Positions 2,205 to 8,636 of a DNA stretch of 8,791 bases are shown in pieces; position 1 is the stretch's first letter, and every line of letters begins with the position of its first letter. The notes below the pieces were generated by a model. That model had not been told where the DNA came from. It made no database searches and worked only from the letters and a program-made list of their open reading frames with translations. This stretch comes from a bacterium. Lineage in GTDB: Bacteria; SM23-31; JAUVVT01. The DNA is taken from contig JAUWXV010000157.1 of the NCBI GenBank assembly GCA_030616165.1, positions 1 to 8,791 on the forward strand. Reading direction: 5' to 3'. Made by a program: the position numbers and the translations under genes.

Positions 2205-3254
2205 ATGAAAACGATCGATCTTGAAACAATTATTGACCAGCGGAGATTGTATTCTCATATCGCATTTTTCCTTATTTCGTTATTGATTGTGGTTTTTTCT
2301 GCACTGGCCAGAAACTATTCATCATCAATCAGGGATCAACTTGAATTTGCTATTCTGATCTTCATATATCTGGAAGCATTCATTTTTCTTGCCAGGAAGA
2401 TATTCCTGCGTCTGGGTCCGGATACTACAAGTAAGGAGTTTCTCCGGAATATACTATCCCGGTTTCTTATTTTTTATATTGCCTGTTTTTTTTCTGCGCT
2501 GGTTATTTTTATCATATTTCGCTACTTTAATTATTGGATGAATGACCTGGACCTAACCAGGGTAATTTACAACTTCTTTCATTCTGAATTTAATTCATGG
2601 TTTAAGTCAATAATAAAGGGTTTGTCCTTTGGTGCAGTAATATTTCTCTTTGTGCAATGGATGGATGCCTTAAAGAGAGAGCGGAAACTGAAGGAAGAAA
2701 GCCTGATTTTTCAAAACGAAACACTCAAAAATCAGGTAAATCCACATTTCTTGTTCAATAGTCTGAACACTGTTTCATCATTAATCAGTACAAAACCCGA
2801 AGTTGCCGAAAGGTTTATAAGCAGATTATCTTCAATTTACAGGTATATTCTTGAGAACAGCCAGAAGGATAAAGTTCCCCTTCAATCTGAATTAGCATTT
2901 ATCAGCGATTATTTTGATCTTCATAAGATAAGAGACGAAGAAAAAATATTACTTACCATAAATGCCCCCGATGCAGGTAATTTCGGGATTCTTCCTGTTT
3001 CGCTTCAGATTCTTATAGAGAATGCCATCAAGCATAACAAGGCAACACGAGAAAATCCATTAAAGATTTCAATTTTTATTGAAAATCAGCAGATTATTGT
3101 AAAAAACAATCTTCAGAAAATGGCCTTACAATTAAAATCGACAAAAATGGGACTTAAGAACCTTGCTGAACGTGTCAGACTTATAACAGGGGAAGTGCTT
3201 ATTATTGAAGAAACAAATACTGATTTTATTGTAAAAGTACCTTTATTGTTATGA
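2205..3254 (+). CDS. LytS-type membrane sensor histidine kinase
   Basis: This is a sensor kinase that passes phosphate to a LytTR regulator. The 349-residue protein has four predicted membrane helices (about 18-36, 47-67, 84-107 and 137-153) and then a short coiled linker rich in Lys and Glu. The histidine-kinase box of the His_kinase (LytS/YehU) family follows: NQVNPHFLFNSLN, phospho-acceptor His181. The ATP-binding domain shows the N box (LQILIENAIKHN, 268-279) and a G-box equivalent (KMGLKNLAERVRLITG, about 314-329). No extracellular sensor domain or PAS domain is evident, so sensing is probably by the membrane segment or a partner. Its stop overlaps the next gene's start in ATGA, the usual sign of translational coupling, and that gene is its cognate regulator. 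The length is typical of the Bacteroidota group. The signal is unknown. No ribosome binding site precedes the start, but a promoter-like element ends six bases before it. Confidence 0.93.
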   Translation: MKTIDLETIIDQRRLYSHIAFFLISLLIVVFSALARNYSSSIRDQLEFAILIFIYLEAFIFLARKIFLRLGPDTTSKEFLRNILSRFLIFYIACFFSALVIFIIFRYFNYWMNDLDLTRVIYNFFHSEFNSWFKSIIKGLSFGAVIFLFVQWMDALKRERKLKEESLIFQNETLKNQVNPHFLFNSLNTVSSLISTKPEVAERFISRLSSIYRYILENSQKDKVPLQSELAFISDYFDLHKIRDEEKILLTINAPDAGNFGILPVSLQILIENAIKHNKATRENPLKISIFIENQQIIVKNNLQKMALQLKSTKMGLKNLAERVRLITGEVLIIEETNTDFIVKVPLLL

Positions 3255-4009
3255 ACATACTTATAATTGAAAATGAAAAACCGGCTGCTGATAAGCTTGG
3301 ACGTCTTTTACAAAAAATAGATGAGAATATTACAATTGTCGGAGTTATCGAAACAGTTGAAGGGACTGTAAACTGGTTGCAAAACAATCAGTCTCCTGAT
3401 TTGATTTTAATTGATATTCAACTTGACGATGGTATATGTTTTGAAATATTTGAGACAATAAAAGTTGATACTCCGGTAATTTTTACAACAGCTTACAATG
3501 AATATGTATTGCGGGCTTTTAAAGTAAATAGTGTTGATTACCTTTTGAAGCCCATTGAGGAAGAAGCTCTACGCAAAGCACTGGATAAATTCAAAACTCT
3601 CCATTTTAAATTGCCAGGTGATATCTTAAAGCAACTTTTCAGTGAATTAAACAAACAATATAAAAACCGTTTCCTTATTAAAATTGGGTTACATTACAGG
3701 TCGATTCAGGTAAATGAAATATGCTGTTTTTATATTCTCGAACGCGCTACATTTATTAGAACATTCTCAGGTAAAGAATATTCCATTGATAATTCTCTCG
3801 ATTACCTCCAAAAAATAGTTGACCCTGATAAATTTTTCAGGATTAACAGAAATTATTTGGTAAACATTAATGCAATTAGCGATATTTTAAGTTATTCATC
3901 GAGCAGGTTGCAATTAAGGTTAAATGAGAAGATACAATCTATTAATGAAGATTATTTAGTAGTGAGCAGGGAAAAAGTAAACGAGTTTAAAAAGTGGATA
4001 GATAAATGA
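3251..4009 (+). CDS. LytTR family response regulator
   Basis: This is a two-domain transcription regulator of 252 residues. The receiver domain (about 1-115) has the phospho-acceptor in LILIDIQLDDG (Asp55), the conserved Thr80 of FTTAYNEY and Lys100 of VDYLLKP. The acidic pocket that is usually Asp/Glu-Asp reads IIENEKPA, so the second acid (position 8) is Asn; this may weaken magnesium binding. The C-terminal LytTR DNA-binding domain (about 148-250) carries its hallmark FFRINRNYLVN near 196-206 and ends in VSREKVNEFKKWI. It is translationally coupled to the kinase gene by a four-base overlap (ATGA) and is its obvious phosphorylation partner. Target promoters cannot be read from the window; LytTR proteins commonly bind paired direct repeats, and the neighbouring secreted-protein gene is a reasonable but unproven target. 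No terminator hairpin with a T run is visible after the stop. Confidence 0.95.
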   Translation: MNILIIENEKPAADKLGRLLQKIDENITIVGVIETVEGTVNWLQNNQSPDLILIDIQLDDGICFEIFETIKVDTPVIFTTAYNEYVLRAFKVNSVDYLLKPIEEEALRKALDKFKTLHFKLPGDILKQLFSELNKQYKNRFLIKIGLHYRSIQVNEICCFYILERATFIRTFSGKEYSIDNSLDYLQKIVDPDKFFRINRNYLVNINAISDILSYSSSRLQLRLNEKIQSINEDYLVVSREKVNEFKKWIDK

Positions 4010-4110: not shown

Positions 4111-4194
4111 ACAACGAATAAATACAAAATAAAAAAGCCCAGCAGGTAATTGAGTAGGCGGCTGATGGGATTGTTGCCCCGCCAATGCGCCTCT

Positions 4195-4217
4195 CCCCGA
4201 TACACTTCGTTACGGGG
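4195..4217 (+). repeat. 23-base imperfect palindrome inserted after the integrase Arg box
   Basis: CCCCG (4195-4199) and CGGGG (4213-4217) pair around ATACACTTCGTTA, in which AC/GT can pair inside a mismatched internal loop. It lies where relatives have only five residues between MRLS and KLSDID; here there are thirteen, an excess of about 24 bases. The insertion limits are uncertain because the host gene is decayed. Confidence 0.5.
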
Positions 4218-4231
4218 CAGGCACACCACTC

Positions 4232-4245
4232 CCGAAAGCTTTCGG
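4232..4245 (+). repeat. Perfect 14-base palindrome CCGAAAGCTTTCGG
   Basis: The sequence is fully self-complementary and overlaps the codons for KLS in KLSDIDSDR of the integrase remnant. It lies 14 bases after the 23-base palindrome. It could be coding sequence that happens to be symmetric, or part of the same cluster of palindromic insertions. Confidence 0.45.
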
Positions 4246-4500
4246 ATATTGACTCAGACAGGATGTTAATTAAAATAAAGGGGTCAAAAGGAAACAAGGG
4301 CAGGTATATTCAGTTATCGGAGGTGGTATTACAGAAGTTGCGGTTGTATTATAAAGGATTCAAGCCTAATGAATGGGTTATTGAAGGCAGGAACGGGAGA
4401 ACTTACAGTGCCACATCGGTTGCGAAGGTAGTAGAGCAGGCTGCCCTGCGATCGGGAATTGAGAAAAGAGTTACTCCACATATGTTAAGGCACAGTTTTG

Positions 4501-4522
4501 TGGCATAGCCATCCCTACGGGG
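4501..4522 (+). repeat. 22-base twin mini-hairpin insertion in integrase remnant, copy 2
   Basis: TGGC-ATA-GCCA (4501-4511) followed by TCCC-TAC-GGGG (4512-4522, outer pair a T-G wobble). It splits the Ala codon of HSF-A-TH at the same base as in copy 1; removing it rebuilds GCC ACA CAT. Compared with 899-920 the first hairpin is identical. The second differs at two loop bases and one outer stem base, so the 4-3-4 hairpin form is kept. Confidence 0.8.
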
Positions 4523-4584
4523 CCACACATTATTTATAGATGGGTACAGATCTCCGGTATATTCAGGAGTGGTCAGGTCATAAT

Positions 4585-4608
4585 TACCTTCGGTGAGGGT
4601 TTCGCCGT
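4585..4608 (+). repeat. About 24 extra in-frame bases with hairpin in integrase remnant copy 2
   Basis: Between GHN and the K-TTQIYTH codons there are eleven codons where relatives have three. The extra bases include ACC-TTC-GGT (4586-4594), a 3-base stem and loop that extends to a 4-3-4 hairpin with a T-G wobble (4585-4595). CGG (4591-4593) and CCG (4605-4607) can pair alternatively. They contain an in-frame TGA. The exact borders are uncertain. Confidence 0.45.
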
Positions 4609-4758
4609 TTTCTAAAAACGACGCAGATATACACTCATATATCGGAGTAAAATTTTCGTAAATTCATGAATCCATTGGATAGTTTATTTAATGAAGAAAA
4701 ATAAAAAAAGTGTACATACTCCTCTATTTTGAAGGTATATATACACTTGATATAATAA

Positions 4759-4932: not shown

Positions 4933-4992
4933 CAAGCAAATTTGCAATTCACACACTGGCAAACACACAATCCCAAAATTACAAAAGAGCTT
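4933..4992 (+). repeat. Direct repeat flanking the inositol cluster, left copy
   Basis: About 60 bases from CAAGC to AGCTT align with 8510-8567 in the same orientation. Shared blocks are CAAGCaAATTTGCAATTCA (one mismatch), ACACACAA and CAAAAGAGCTT, with a net two-base length difference. It overlaps the inverted repeat 4917-4963. The two copies bracket the four-gene cluster. Confidence 0.65.
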
Positions 4993-5028
4993 GCTTTTGC
5001 CAACCCACAAAAAGTAAGTAAATTTTAT

Positions 5029-5120: not shown

Positions 5121-6269
5121 ATGAAAAAAATTAAACTAGCGATTGTCGGAATTGGAAACTGTACCAGTTCATTAGTTCAAGGAATTGAATATTACAAAAA
5201 CAAAAGCGAGAAAAATGCAATCGGATTGATGCATTGGGATATAGGAGGTTATATGCCTGGTGATATTGAAGTGGTTGCTGCTTTCGATATTGATAAAAGA
5301 AAAGTAGGTAAAGATGTGTCTGAGGCTATTTTTGAGCTTCCTAACTGCACTACCGTTTTTTGTAAAGATGTACCAAAAGCAGGAATTAGGGTAAAAATGG
5401 GGAAAATTTTGGATGGTTTTTCTGACCACATGAAAAATTATGACGATAAACACACCTTCGTTATAAGTGATGAACAAGAAGCATCAGAAGAAGATGTAAT
5501 CAATGTATTAAAAGAATCAGGGGCTGAAATTTTAATTAATTATCTTCCGGTAGGCTCCGAAGATGCAACAAAGTTTTATGCTGATTGTGCTCTTAAGTCA
5601 GGTTTGGCATTCATCAATAACATGCCTGTATTTATAGCCAGCAATCCTGAATGGGCAGAAAAATTTAAAGACAAAGGCCTACCCATAATTGGGGATGATA
5701 TAAAAGCTCAGGTTGGTGCAACAATTACTCATCGAGTTTTGGCTGATCTTTTTAATAAAAGGGGGGCGAAAATTGAAAGGACTTATCAGTTAAATACAGG
5801 TGGTAATACGGACTTCCTTAATATGCTGAACAAAGACAGGCTTGCTTCCAAAAAAGTATCTAAAACCGAAGCAGTACAGTCAGTCCTTGCAGAAAAGCTT
5901 GATGATGATAACATTCATATTGGTCCCAGCGATTATGTGCCCTGGCAAAAAGACAATAAGATTTGTTTCCTTAGAATCGAAGGAAAACTTTTTGGTGACG
6001 TACCTATGAATTTAGAATTGCGGTTGTCTGTTGAAGATTCTCCAAATTCGGGAGGAGTATCCATTGACGCAATTAGATTATGCAAGCTTGCTCTTGAAAG
6101 AGGTCAGGGAGGTATTCTTTATGGACCATCAGCCTTTCTTATGAAGCACCCGCCAAAACAATTTACAGATGATGAGGCCTATAAGTTGACGAAGAAATTC
6201 ATAGCCGGAAAAAATAGCACATCAATTAAAACTCTATCAGAATCAGTCTCAGTAGTAAATAAGAATTAA
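5121..6269 (+). CDS. ino1: Inositol-3-phosphate synthase (myo-inositol-1-phosphate synthase)
   Basis: The enzyme uses bound NAD to cyclise glucose-6-phosphate to inositol phosphate, the first committed step of inositol synthesis, in the cytoplasm. The 382-residue product matches the short prokaryotic form (mycobacterial Ino1 type, about 365 residues) rather than the eukaryotic one (over 500). Visible motifs: the nucleotide-binding GIGNCTS (10-16), the family signature GDDIKAQVGATI (191-202), LNTGGNTDFLNM (224-235), the active-site Lys stretch SKKVSKTE (243-250) and SPNSGGVSID (307-316) near the C-terminus. It is first in the cluster; its stop is eight bases before the next start, indicating one operon, and the next enzyme uses its product. 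No Shine-Dalgarno site is seen. A possible promoter element and two hairpins lie in the 85-base leader. No key residue appears lost. Identification is firm; the stereochemical numbering of the product is from family knowledge. Confidence 0.96.
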   Translation: MKKIKLAIVGIGNCTSSLVQGIEYYKNKSEKNAIGLMHWDIGGYMPGDIEVVAAFDIDKRKVGKDVSEAIFELPNCTTVFCKDVPKAGIRVKMGKILDGFSDHMKNYDDKHTFVISDEQEASEEDVINVLKESGAEILINYLPVGSEDATKFYADCALKSGLAFINNMPVFIASNPEWAEKFKDKGLPIIGDDIKAQVGATITHRVLADLFNKRGAKIERTYQLNTGGNTDFLNMLNKDRLASKKVSKTEAVQSVLAEKLDDDNIHIGPSDYVPWQKDNKICFLRIEGKLFGDVPMNLELRLSVEDSPNSGGVSIDAIRLCKLALERGQGGILYGPSAFLMKHPPKQFTDDEAYKLTKKFIAGKNSTSIKTLSESVSVVNKN

Positions 6270-6277
6270 AAAAGGGG

Positions 6278-7606
6278 ATGAAATGTTTAATCATTGCAGC
6301 AGGCCGTGGATGCAGATTATCTAGCAAGGGGAATTCAAAACCACTTGTTCCGCTTTTGGGATTGCCCCTCATTGAACGTACAATACTAACTGCAAAAAAA
6401 GGCGGTATTAATGACTTTTACGTTGTAACAGGTTATGAAGGAGAGAAAGTAAGGCGTTATCTCGATAAGTTAGGCCAGAGAACAAACATCAATATCACTC
6501 ATATTATCAATGAAGAATGGGAAAAGGGTAACGGTATTTCCGTGCTCAAAGCAAGGGACTTGATCAAAGAGCCATTTATTCTGTTGATGGCAGACCATCT
6601 TTTTGACTATTCCATTCTGGAAGGTCTAAAAAAAGAACAAATTTCTGAGGATGAAATTATCCTTGCTGTTGATCGCAATATTGAATCAAACAAATTTGTT
6701 GATATTGATGATGTTACAAAAGTTCTTATAGAAGACAATAATAAGATAACAGCAATTGGGAAAAACATCAGCAATTATAACGCTTATGATACTGGAATTT
6801 TTCTTTGTTCTCCTGTTCTTTTTTATGCTATTGAAGATAGTTTTTTATCCACTGGTGATAGCACTCTTTCCGGAGGAATAATGATACTTTCCGGTAACGG
6901 CAATGCCAAAACATTTGATGTCCAAGATAGTTACTGGATCGATGTTGATGATGAAAAAGCATTTAGCAAAGCGGAAAACTTACTTATTAGCAATTTAAAA
7001 AAGGCTTCTGACGGGCCTGTTTCAAGATATTTAAACAGGCCTCTGTCTATACGATTAACAAGATTGTTTTTAAACACAAAAATTGTACCCAACCATATTT
7101 CAATATTGGCTTTTATATTAGGGGTATTAGGTGCCGGATTCTTCTTTTTAGGAGGATATATTAATTTAATTATAGGGGGGATTATAGCTCAAATAGCATC
7201 TGTTATTGATGGATGTGATGGCGAAATAGCCAGATTGAAGTTTAAAGCTTCTGAGTTTGGAGGATGGTTTGATGCTGTTTTGGATCGTTATGGAGATGCT
7301 TTTCTTCTTTTTGGGTTGACTTACCATGTTTATTGGATTGATGGCAGGTTCCTGTACATTATCATAGGATTTTTGGCAATTATCGGAACATTTATGAACA
7401 GTTATACAGCAGATAAGTATGATGGATTGATGCAAAAAAAACTCAAGCCAGGAATGCACTATTTCAGGATAGGACGTGACGTTAGAACATTCATCATATT
7501 TCTTGGAGCGCTGGTAAATCAACCTCTTTTAATCCTTATTTTAATTGCTTTTATAACGAATGCAGAAAATGTGAGGAGGGTATTAATTTTATATAAGAAT
7601 GGATAA
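6278..7606 (+). CDS. Bifunctional CTP:inositol-1-phosphate cytidylyltransferase / CDP-inositol phosphotransferase (IPCT-DIPPS type)
   Basis: Two enzymes are fused in 442 residues. The N-terminal nucleotidyltransferase (about 1-235) begins LIIAAGRGCRL with the SKPLVPLLG site (20-28). It carries GNGISVL (84-90) and MADH (104-107), as in the Archaeoglobus-type inositol-phosphate cytidylyltransferase; it would make CDP-inositol. The linker DGPVSRYLNRPLS (245-257) is characteristic of this fusion. The C-terminal half is a multi-helix membrane CDP-alcohol phosphotransferase with a complete motif D-x2-DG-x2-AR-x8-G-x3-D-x3-D (Asp311, Asp314, Gly315, Ala318, Arg319, Gly328, Asp332, Asp336; local DGCDGEIAR). 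In hyperthermophiles this fusion joins CDP-inositol to inositol-1-phosphate, giving phosphorylated di-myo-inositol phosphate. AAGGGG lies just before the start, which is unusual for this phylum. The gene overlaps the next by eight bases. The acceptor here could instead be another alcohol or a lipid, since the motif does not define it. Confidence 0.9.
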   Translation: MKCLIIAAGRGCRLSSKGNSKPLVPLLGLPLIERTILTAKKGGINDFYVVTGYEGEKVRRYLDKLGQRTNINITHIINEEWEKGNGISVLKARDLIKEPFILLMADHLFDYSILEGLKKEQISEDEIILAVDRNIESNKFVDIDDVTKVLIEDNNKITAIGKNISNYNAYDTGIFLCSPVLFYAIEDSFLSTGDSTLSGGIMILSGNGNAKTFDVQDSYWIDVDDEKAFSKAENLLISNLKKASDGPVSRYLNRPLSIRLTRLFLNTKIVPNHISILAFILGVLGAGFFFLGGYINLIIGGIIAQIASVIDGCDGEIARLKFKASEFGGWFDAVLDRYGDAFLLFGLTYHVYWIDGRFLYIIIGFLAIIGTFMNSYTADKYDGLMQKKLKPGMHYFRIGRDVRTFIIFLGALVNQPLLILILIAFITNAENVRRVLILYKNG

Positions 7607-8171
7607 GATTAATTTAGTAAAAGGAAAAATTGAAGAGGTAATTAAAGGATCATCTGTTCCTGAAGATCCCATCCATTCAAAAAACACGTTGGAATGGTTG
7701 CTGAAACTAAAGCCCGGTGCTGACGAGAGTCTAACAATAGCTGCTTTAGGACATGATATTGAAAGAGCTATTGAGAAGCGGAAAGTGAGGCGACAGGATT
7801 ACAAAGATTACGATGCATTTAAAGATGCCCATGCCTTAAACAGTGCTAATGTCATTGCAGAAATTATGCAAGCTTGCGACATTGATAAAAAAATGATTGA
7901 TGAGGTGTTTTTTCTGGTACGGCATCATGAAACCGGAGGTACAGATCGGGTTGATATTCTGAAGGATGCAGATAGCATCTCGTATTTTGATGTAAATTTG
8001 CCTCATTATTTTTTACGTAATAATCTAATAGAGACAAAAAGACGGTGCTTGTGGGGATACAAAAGATTATCCGATGTAGGGAAAAAGATTGTCGCAGAAT
8101 TGAATTATAAAAATAAAGAGGTTGAGTCCCTTTTGAAGGTATGTATTGCTGAATGTGAACAAACAATGTAA
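7599..8171 (+). CDS. HD-domain metal-dependent phosphohydrolase-like protein
   Basis: The 190-residue protein has the HD-superfamily metal site: DPIHSKNTLEWL (His26), AALGHDIERA (His52-Asp53), VRHHETGG (His109-His110) and LKDADSISYF (Asp123). His78 in DAHAL is an extra candidate ligand. No second domain or membrane segment is visible, so it should be a small cytoplasmic hydrolase. Its start lies within the last codons of the fusion gene (eight-base overlap), so the two are translationally coupled. HD proteins cleave phosphate mono- or diesters or nucleotides. The DIP route needs a phosphatase for the phosphorylated intermediate after the fused enzyme, and this is the only hydrolase in the cluster, so that role is a reasonable inference. 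A turnover or regulatory nucleotide hydrolase remains possible. I do not recognise a named subfamily. Confidence 0.8.
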   Translation: MDKINLVKGKIEEVIKGSSVPEDPIHSKNTLEWLLKLKPGADESLTIAALGHDIERAIEKRKVRRQDYKDYDAFKDAHALNSANVIAEIMQACDIDKKMIDEVFFLVRHHETGGTDRVDILKDADSISYFDVNLPHYFLRNNLIETKRRCLWGYKRLSDVGKKIVAELNYKNKEVESLLKVCIAECEQTM

Positions 8172-8509: not shown

Positions 8510-8567
8510 CAAGCACATTTGCAATTCATACGAGCAGACACACAAGTCAAAAATTGCAAAAGAGCTT
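8510..8567 (+). repeat. Direct repeat flanking the inositol cluster, right copy
   Basis: Same orientation as 4933-4992, sharing CAAGC, ATTTGCAATTCA, ACACACAA, CAAAAGAGCTT and similar spacing. The middle part (ACGAGCAGA against ACACTGGCAAA) has diverged. The palindrome GCAAATTTGC of the left copy is GCACATTTGC here. Confidence 0.65.
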
Positions 8568-8636
8568 ACAAAGCCTACCCGAAAATTATGGCAAACCCAA
8601 AACAAAATTTTTAAAAAAAGTATAATGACAACGGAG

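Follow-up and report, generated by a model that had tools for sequence, protein, structure and literature searches.

A 22-nucleotide double-hairpin repeat, apparently mobile in bacteria of the FCB group, splits two integrase remnants at the same codon

Introduction

The described repeats to which the 22-nucleotide sequence analyzed here appears closest are the SDRs, a class of very small mobile repeats in Nostoc punctiforme and its relatives. Elhai and colleagues, in Genome Research in 2008, reportedly distinguished several SDR families of 21–27 nt with a shared secondary structure backed by compensatory change. These repeats are said to be mobile without a gene of their own and to be nested in other repeats, one family occurring only inside the palindromic octamer HIP1. 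Elements so small carry only structure. The 22-mer matches the SDRs in size, in covariation, in nesting within palindromes and in the evidence of insertion from filled and empty sites, but it is found in the FCB group, not in cyanobacteria, has the target TTN^NAA, and also occurs in tRNA T-loops, at an intron joint and in coding genes. The SDR class is mentioned in the REP literature as well (PMC3116915).

The second group that invites comparison comprises the REP and REPIN sequences with their RAYT transposases (PMC3116915, PMC3733652, PMC6006769), which, like the 22-mer, are short, palindromic and dispersed. By definition, a REP hairpin has the tetranucleotide GTAG or CGTC at its foot (PMC3733652), and the RAYT genes of subclass 2.6 in Bacteroidota have atypical hairpins at their flanks (PMC6006769). 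Whereas a REP is a single hairpin of 5–13 bp that ends in such a foot, the 22-mer consists of two abutting 4-bp hairpins, is inserted exactly at TTN^NAA, and is itself nested within REPs: its copies often occupy the loop of a REP-like hairpin, in some cases adjacent to a RAYT-type gene. MITEs resemble the 22-mer in being small, non-autonomous and dispersed, but the 22-mer has neither terminal inverted repeats spanning the element nor a target-site duplication.

An earlier note on this DNA, made from the sequence alone, had drawn two further likenesses, which fit less well. Rickettsia palindromic elements are likewise palindromic inserts inside coding genes, but they measure about 100–150 nt and keep the reading frame, whereas insertion of the much shorter 22-mer disrupts the frame and introduces an in-frame TAG. 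The byps of Magnusiomyces mitochondria are also short hairpin inserts in coding sequence. Tolerance in essential genes would be expected of a bypassing element, yet every gene found hit here is dispensable or spare, and for the inserts in tRNA copies, introns and intergenic DNA translational bypass is not an option. Better supported is the suggestion in the earlier note of a small palindromic element that hits repeatedly. Our reading, to which we assign a probability of about three in four on the basis of sequence comparison, is that FCB bacteria carry the 22-mer as a double hairpin that is non-autonomous and apparently mobile, inserts exactly at TTN^NAA and would be moved in trans.

Two copies of the 22-mer in the window

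The window, that is, the whole stretch of 8,791 nucleotides that was analyzed, contains the following features, all on the forward strand.

877–1090, forward: tyrosine integrase C-terminal remnant 1 (HTLRHSF / ...), split by copy 1; PF00589
896–923, forward: target of copy 1, TTG (896–898) ^ CAA (921–923), from the sequence and the family target consensus
899–920, forward: 22-nt double-hairpin element, copy 1, TGGCATAGCCATCCCCATGGGA; TGGC-ATA-GCCA / TCCC-CAT-GGGA
4236–4690, forward: tyrosine integrase remnant 2 (...VTPHMLRHSF / ATHYL...), split by copy 2; PF00589, E 1.5e-13
4498–4525, forward: target of copy 2, TTG (4498–4500) ^ CCA (4523–4525), from the sequence and the family target consensus
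4501–4522, forward: 22-nt double-hairpin element, copy 2, TGGCATAGCCATCCCTACGGGG; TGGC-ATA-GCCA / TCCC-TAC-GGGG

Direct reading of the sequence bears out what the earlier note reported of the two 22-mers at 899–920 and 4501–4522. They differ at three positions, namely element positions 16 and 18, both in loop 2, and position 22, where A in one copy and G in the other gives a T-G wobble. Both split the same Ala codon of the HSF-A-TH box in tyrosine integrase remnants, the PF00589 matches spanning 920–1003 in remnant 1 and 4236–4499 in remnant 2. Removal of the 22-mer restores the frame, for copy 2 yielding ...VTPHMLRHSF-A-THYL in a 119-aa frame that runs through the joint and for copy 1 as judged by reading. 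The target of copy 1 is the center of a six-base dyad within Phe-Ala-Thr, and the coincidence of codons follows from the fact that Phe-Ala-Thr, as TTT GCA ACA, contains the TTG^CAA target. Both remnants are truncated and show further decay: only about 7 codons are left upstream of copy 1 (877–898), and the N-terminal part of remnant 2 is gone, its 3' limit at 4690 being approximate.

The two copies are identical at 19/22 element positions, and their flanks are 62–67% identical. In their own genome (3.74 Mb), a search tolerating two mismatches finds no others; outside the window, a loose pattern with one mismatch retrieved only doubtful look-alikes, all of them lacking a clean TTN^NAA flank. 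The same genome also encodes integrases in which the box is uninterrupted (L265 and L266), so that intact genes lacking the insert do exist, as the earlier note had thought worth checking.

Several other features of the window deserve mention in their own right. A histidine kinase (PF06580) and a LytTR response regulator form a pair at 2205–4009. Genes for inositol-1-phosphate synthase, a fused nucleotidyltransferase/CDP-alcohol phosphatidyltransferase and a DUF4202 protein lie in a row at 5121–8171, an arrangement that resembles a pathway for a phospho-inositol compound. This block is flanked by a diverged direct repeat, 80–91% identical, at 4933–4998 (CAAGCAAATTTGCAATTCACAC...) and 8510–8572 (CAAGCACATTTGCAATTCATAC...), which is a candidate dispersed repeat.

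A dispersed family in FCB bacteria

Across about 85,000 genomes, an exact pattern of 18 fixed bases matched at 73 loci, compared with about 7.5 expected by chance as estimated for random sequence of equal size. The family pattern reads T-NN-C-ATA-G-nn-A-TCCC-NNN-GGG-R. Nearly all of the loci belong to the FCB group, including Ignavibacteria, Balneolaceae, other Bacteroidota, KSB1, Calditrichota and LCP-89; outside this group there is one deltaproteobacterial metagenome-assembled genome (MAG), and the other scattered matches are about as numerous as expected by chance. The varied contexts of the 73 loci show that the 22-mer is not a product of decay private to the genome of the window.

When up to two mismatches were allowed, as many as 25 copies per genome were found across 27 carrier genomes, whereas a control with the reversed pattern almost always gave 0; some genomes hold 20–28 copies, the maximum of 28 being reached with the stem-1 positions free. 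The family is carried by 24 of the 395 Bacteroidota genomes in an even sample. One carrier, Tangfeifania diversioriginum DSM 27063, is a cultured isolate, and the family is therefore not a metagenome artefact. The 128 non-redundant copy contexts have unrelated flanks, and most copies are intergenic. About a dozen loci were left out by judgement as chance or doubtful matches. The 22-mer was not found in five genomes of the same class as that of the window (G001–G005), nor in the viral contigs scanned, and a search for the sequence in the papers accessible to the analysis returned no match bearing on it.

In the MAG named Deltaproteobacteria (genome G111, locus L044), a tolerance of two mismatches brings up about ten family-like copies, which represent either real spread beyond the FCB group or a mislabelled bin. 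The look-alike at L115 was judged to be a chance match.

Covariation in the first stem

The element consists solely of two abutting hairpins with 4-bp stems and 3-base loops. Covariation was assessed with stem-1 positions 2, 3, 9 and 10 left free, using matches from 20 genomes; stem 2 (CCC/GGG) was fixed by the search pattern and is uninformative in this respect. Stem 1 takes many forms (TGGC/GCCA, TGCC/GGCA, TCCC/GGGA, TCGC/GCGA, TCAC/GTGA, TACC/GGTA and TTCC/GGAA), and among the 45 distinct sequences 99.0% of the stem-1 cells pair, compared with 85.2% after shuffling, with 38 double-changed cells as opposed to 14.9 in the shuffles. This count with stem 1 free is unbiased, whereas the perfect pairing of the fetched copies (128/128) is biased by how these copies were chosen. 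As isolated RNA, the two window copies fold no better than shuffled sequences (z -0.5 and -0.7), and because these isolated hairpins are weak, the structural case rests on covariation and not on folding energy.

Target consensus, empty sites and filled sites

The insertion point is the center of TTN^NAA, often inside the loop of a larger palindrome. The flanks of 84 non-redundant copies give the consensus Y-T-T-N^V-A-A (frequencies: T 0.49 at -3, T 0.64 at -2, A 0.73 at +2, A 0.63 at +3), and those of all 128 copies give a similar one; the target and stem statistics were obtained from strict-consensus copies only, so that degenerate copies are under-sampled. Positions -1 and +1 are complementary at a frequency of 0.40 in the 84-copy set, compared with 0.26 expected (7 of 2000 shuffles), and more weakly so in the 128-copy set (0.34 vs 0.26). 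Strong flanking stems (score >=16) accompany 17.5% of the copies but only 1.0% of random positions, examples being TTAACCCACGACTT^AAGTCGTGGGTTAA at L028 and CCCTTAGGGTTTTG^GAAACCCTAAGGG at L118. Minimum-energy folding shows a modest enrichment of location in hairpin loops, 0.42 vs 0.31, and the strength of the flanking stems, together with covariation, was relied on in its place. A guide-like rule linking the stem-1 type to the flanking bases was sought in the 128 copies, and no clear one emerged.

Comparison of empty and filled sites revealed exactly 22 extra bases, with neither duplication nor loss of the target. At L021, an interrupted tRNA-Arg copy adjoins an intact tRNA-Arg(tct), the T-arm reading GTGGTTC[22]GAGTCCAC when filled and GTGGTTCGAGTCCAC when empty; tRNA T-loops present TTC^GAA as the target. 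At L150, the insert lies in the T-arm of a 3' tRNA-Ser fragment, with intact tRNA-Ser(cga) and tRNA-Ser(gga) at the same locus. REP-like hairpins of the form GGGCT^AAAGCCC are both filled and empty around a single gene at L183, and there are several further pairs of this kind beyond these three.

Downstream of the intact tRNA-Ser genes at L150, 3' tRNA-Ser ends recur whose T-loop holds an insert resembling the 22-mer; these ends are possibly remnants of attachment sites.

Genes and RNAs interrupted by the 22-mer

The targets include REP-like hairpins, spare tRNA T-loops, the joint between domains 5 and 6 of a group II intron, insertion sequence (IS) transposases and integrases; none of the genes found hit is needed for life, all being dispensable or spare. 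Joining the flanks gives long open frames in the integrases of the window (4501), L047 and L068 (294 aa), the latter two being divergent integrases from other genomes split at the identical base of the box, and an integrase N-terminus is interrupted at L059. The strict pattern yielded no more integrases split at this box in the 395 Bacteroidota genomes. Among the IS transposases, that of L051 has a joined frame of 236 aa with an rve domain and that of L062 one of 393 aa; the names given to L062 and to the nucleotidyltransferase-like gene hit at L060 come from reading the sequences, as their pieces have no Pfam match. A tRNA-Arg(ccg)-like gene, possibly also a spare copy, carries the insert at L018.

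In the group II intron of Tangfeifania (L048), the copy sits between domains V and VI; the RF00029 match spans the insert (30.9 bits, the gathering score being 40), and RVT_1 and GIIM domains are encoded upstream. The contexts at L052, L069 and L109 are similar to this site.

The window itself, in which Rfam found no match, contains at about 4146–4231 an antisense fragment that aligns with the 3' end of the L048 intron, and at about 4195–4217 a different hairpin, CCCCGATACACTTCGTTACGGGG, takes the place of the 22-mer of L048.

The earlier note had also mentioned, as speculation, removal or bypass during expression; on that reading the 22-mer would be skipped or spliced out and the integrases would still work. 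The exact restoration of the frame, the otherwise open integrase of L068 and the two-hairpin shape speak for such bypass, but the interrupted genes comprise integrases, IS transposases and a single nucleotidyltransferase-like gene, the tRNA matches are spare or truncated with an intact tRNA alongside (L021, L150), the window integrases are truncated and further decayed, and most copies are intergenic. Removal or bypass is thus unsupported, since the 22-mer brings a frameshift and a stop and is found only in dispensable or duplicated genes; we consider it very improbable, and the interrupted integrase genes of the window are simply broken.

Separate insertion or common descent of the window copies

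The earlier note had weighed repeated insertion against inheritance from one already interrupted repeat. Repeated hits on the box by a very small palindromic element gain support from the dispersal of the 22-mer, from the exact empty sites and from L047 and L068, which are split at the same base. For the window pair, and perhaps L047 and L068, the rival to consider is descent from a single integrase in which one insertion took place before the disrupted gene multiplied as a repeat. The two copies share a contig, the same base and related flanks (62–67%) in a genome without others, and L047 has the CAT loop and the A end in common with copy 1. However, the flanks differ by about 35% while the elements differ at 3/22 positions (P ~0.025 under equal divergence), with only 1/16 stem positions changed (P ~0.010 under equal divergence). 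Furthermore, L068 is an otherwise open 294-aa integrase with 54% protein identity and 52–63% flanking DNA identity to the window copy; a broken gene would not stay open, which makes a break before the divergence of the two unlikely. The presence of the 22-mer in tRNA copies, introns and transposases also indicates that re-insertion is normal for this element. We therefore regard inherited decay as unlikely and favor separate insertions for the two window copies, with descent or conversion possible for this pair. The location of the only two copies of this genome 3.6 kb apart, both in integrases, is odd for independent hits and counts against our reading.

How the element might move

Mobility is inferred from the comparison of sites, which furnished the dispersal, the covarying structure, the target consensus, the empty/filled pairs differing by 22 nt and the interruption of otherwise open genes. 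We propose that the 22-mer inserts once and exactly at the center of TTN^NAA, with a preference for the loop of an existing palindrome. Movement would take place in trans at the DNA level, the folded single strand probably entering the tip of an extruded hairpin; a three-way junction in which every base is paired can arise from the inserted element and the target arms, as at L028, and the layout of this junction would be identical on both strands. In the window, the element would have struck two integrase genes at the TTG^CAA of the His-Ser-Phe-Ala-Thr-His box.

At each kind of site the insert has one fixed orientation, sense in 4/4 tRNA cases and 4/4 integrase cases and antisense in the 4 intron-like cases, and relative to neighboring co-directional genes the count is 20 vs 17. 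This pattern favors a DNA target with an asymmetry of its own over insertion into transcripts. Insertion at the RNA level, whereby the 22-mer would enter the hairpin loops of transcripts and return to DNA via reverse transcription, is a route that Elhai and colleagues reportedly proposed in 2008 for the Nostoc repeats. It would fit the group II intron and the tRNA T-loops and integrase box with their uniformly sense inserts, but the copy in the L048 intron and those in the similar contexts at L052, L069 and L109 are antisense, as are those within L051 and L059, and no bias is seen with respect to neighboring genes. Such a route appears improbable, even more so than inherited decay, and insertion at the DNA level is favored.

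As to the enzyme, only candidates can be named, the RAYT kind of Y1 HUH transposases. It is conceivable, if doubtful, that the 22-mer is a REPtron passenger, with a RAYT-type Y1 transposase, such as those of the Bacteroidota subclass 2.6, recognizing and moving the double hairpin. Y1_Tnp is present in 17 of the 18 element genomes, at a mean of 6.7 per genome (17 genomes, that of the window excluded) compared with 3.0 in 30 element-free genomes (p 0.0007, phylogeny being uncontrolled), and a copy lies no more than 250 bp away at 3 of the 30 Y1 loci retrieved, where 0.07 would be expected. Nevertheless, Y1_Tnp has no match in one element genome, G114, a GTAG or CGTC foot is absent from the left flank (-4 to -1), and the hairpin neighboring the Y1 gene at L183, GGGCTAAAGCCC, is empty on both sides of the gene and filled once. 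The latter pattern implies that the 22-mer is nested in a REP and is not itself one, and because it is so nested beside the gene at L183 and L168, the link to Y1 may be indirect. A tentative alternative, to which we give about the same weight, is a dedicated DNA-level mechanism by which, throughout the FCB bacteria, the strand in folded form would be placed at the tip of an extruded palindrome without target duplication.

At L183 and L168, a RAYT-type gene is flanked by REP hairpins of the GGGCTAAAGCCC type, some of which are empty while another holds the 22-mer.

Implications

At 22 bases, the element is, to our knowledge, about as small as any mobile element reported. What is new here is a family in another superphylum, with a defined target, TTN^NAA, and strong covariation. 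The side-by-side filled and empty sites, the defined target, the covariation and the availability of a cultured isolate make the mechanism testable. For those who annotate genomes of the FCB group, an exact 22-base frameshift in a gene or tRNA may be an element and not a sequencing error. A dedicated DNA-level mechanism, if it exists, would differ in kind from transposition by the known transposases, and it could be common to the SDRs of cyanobacteria.
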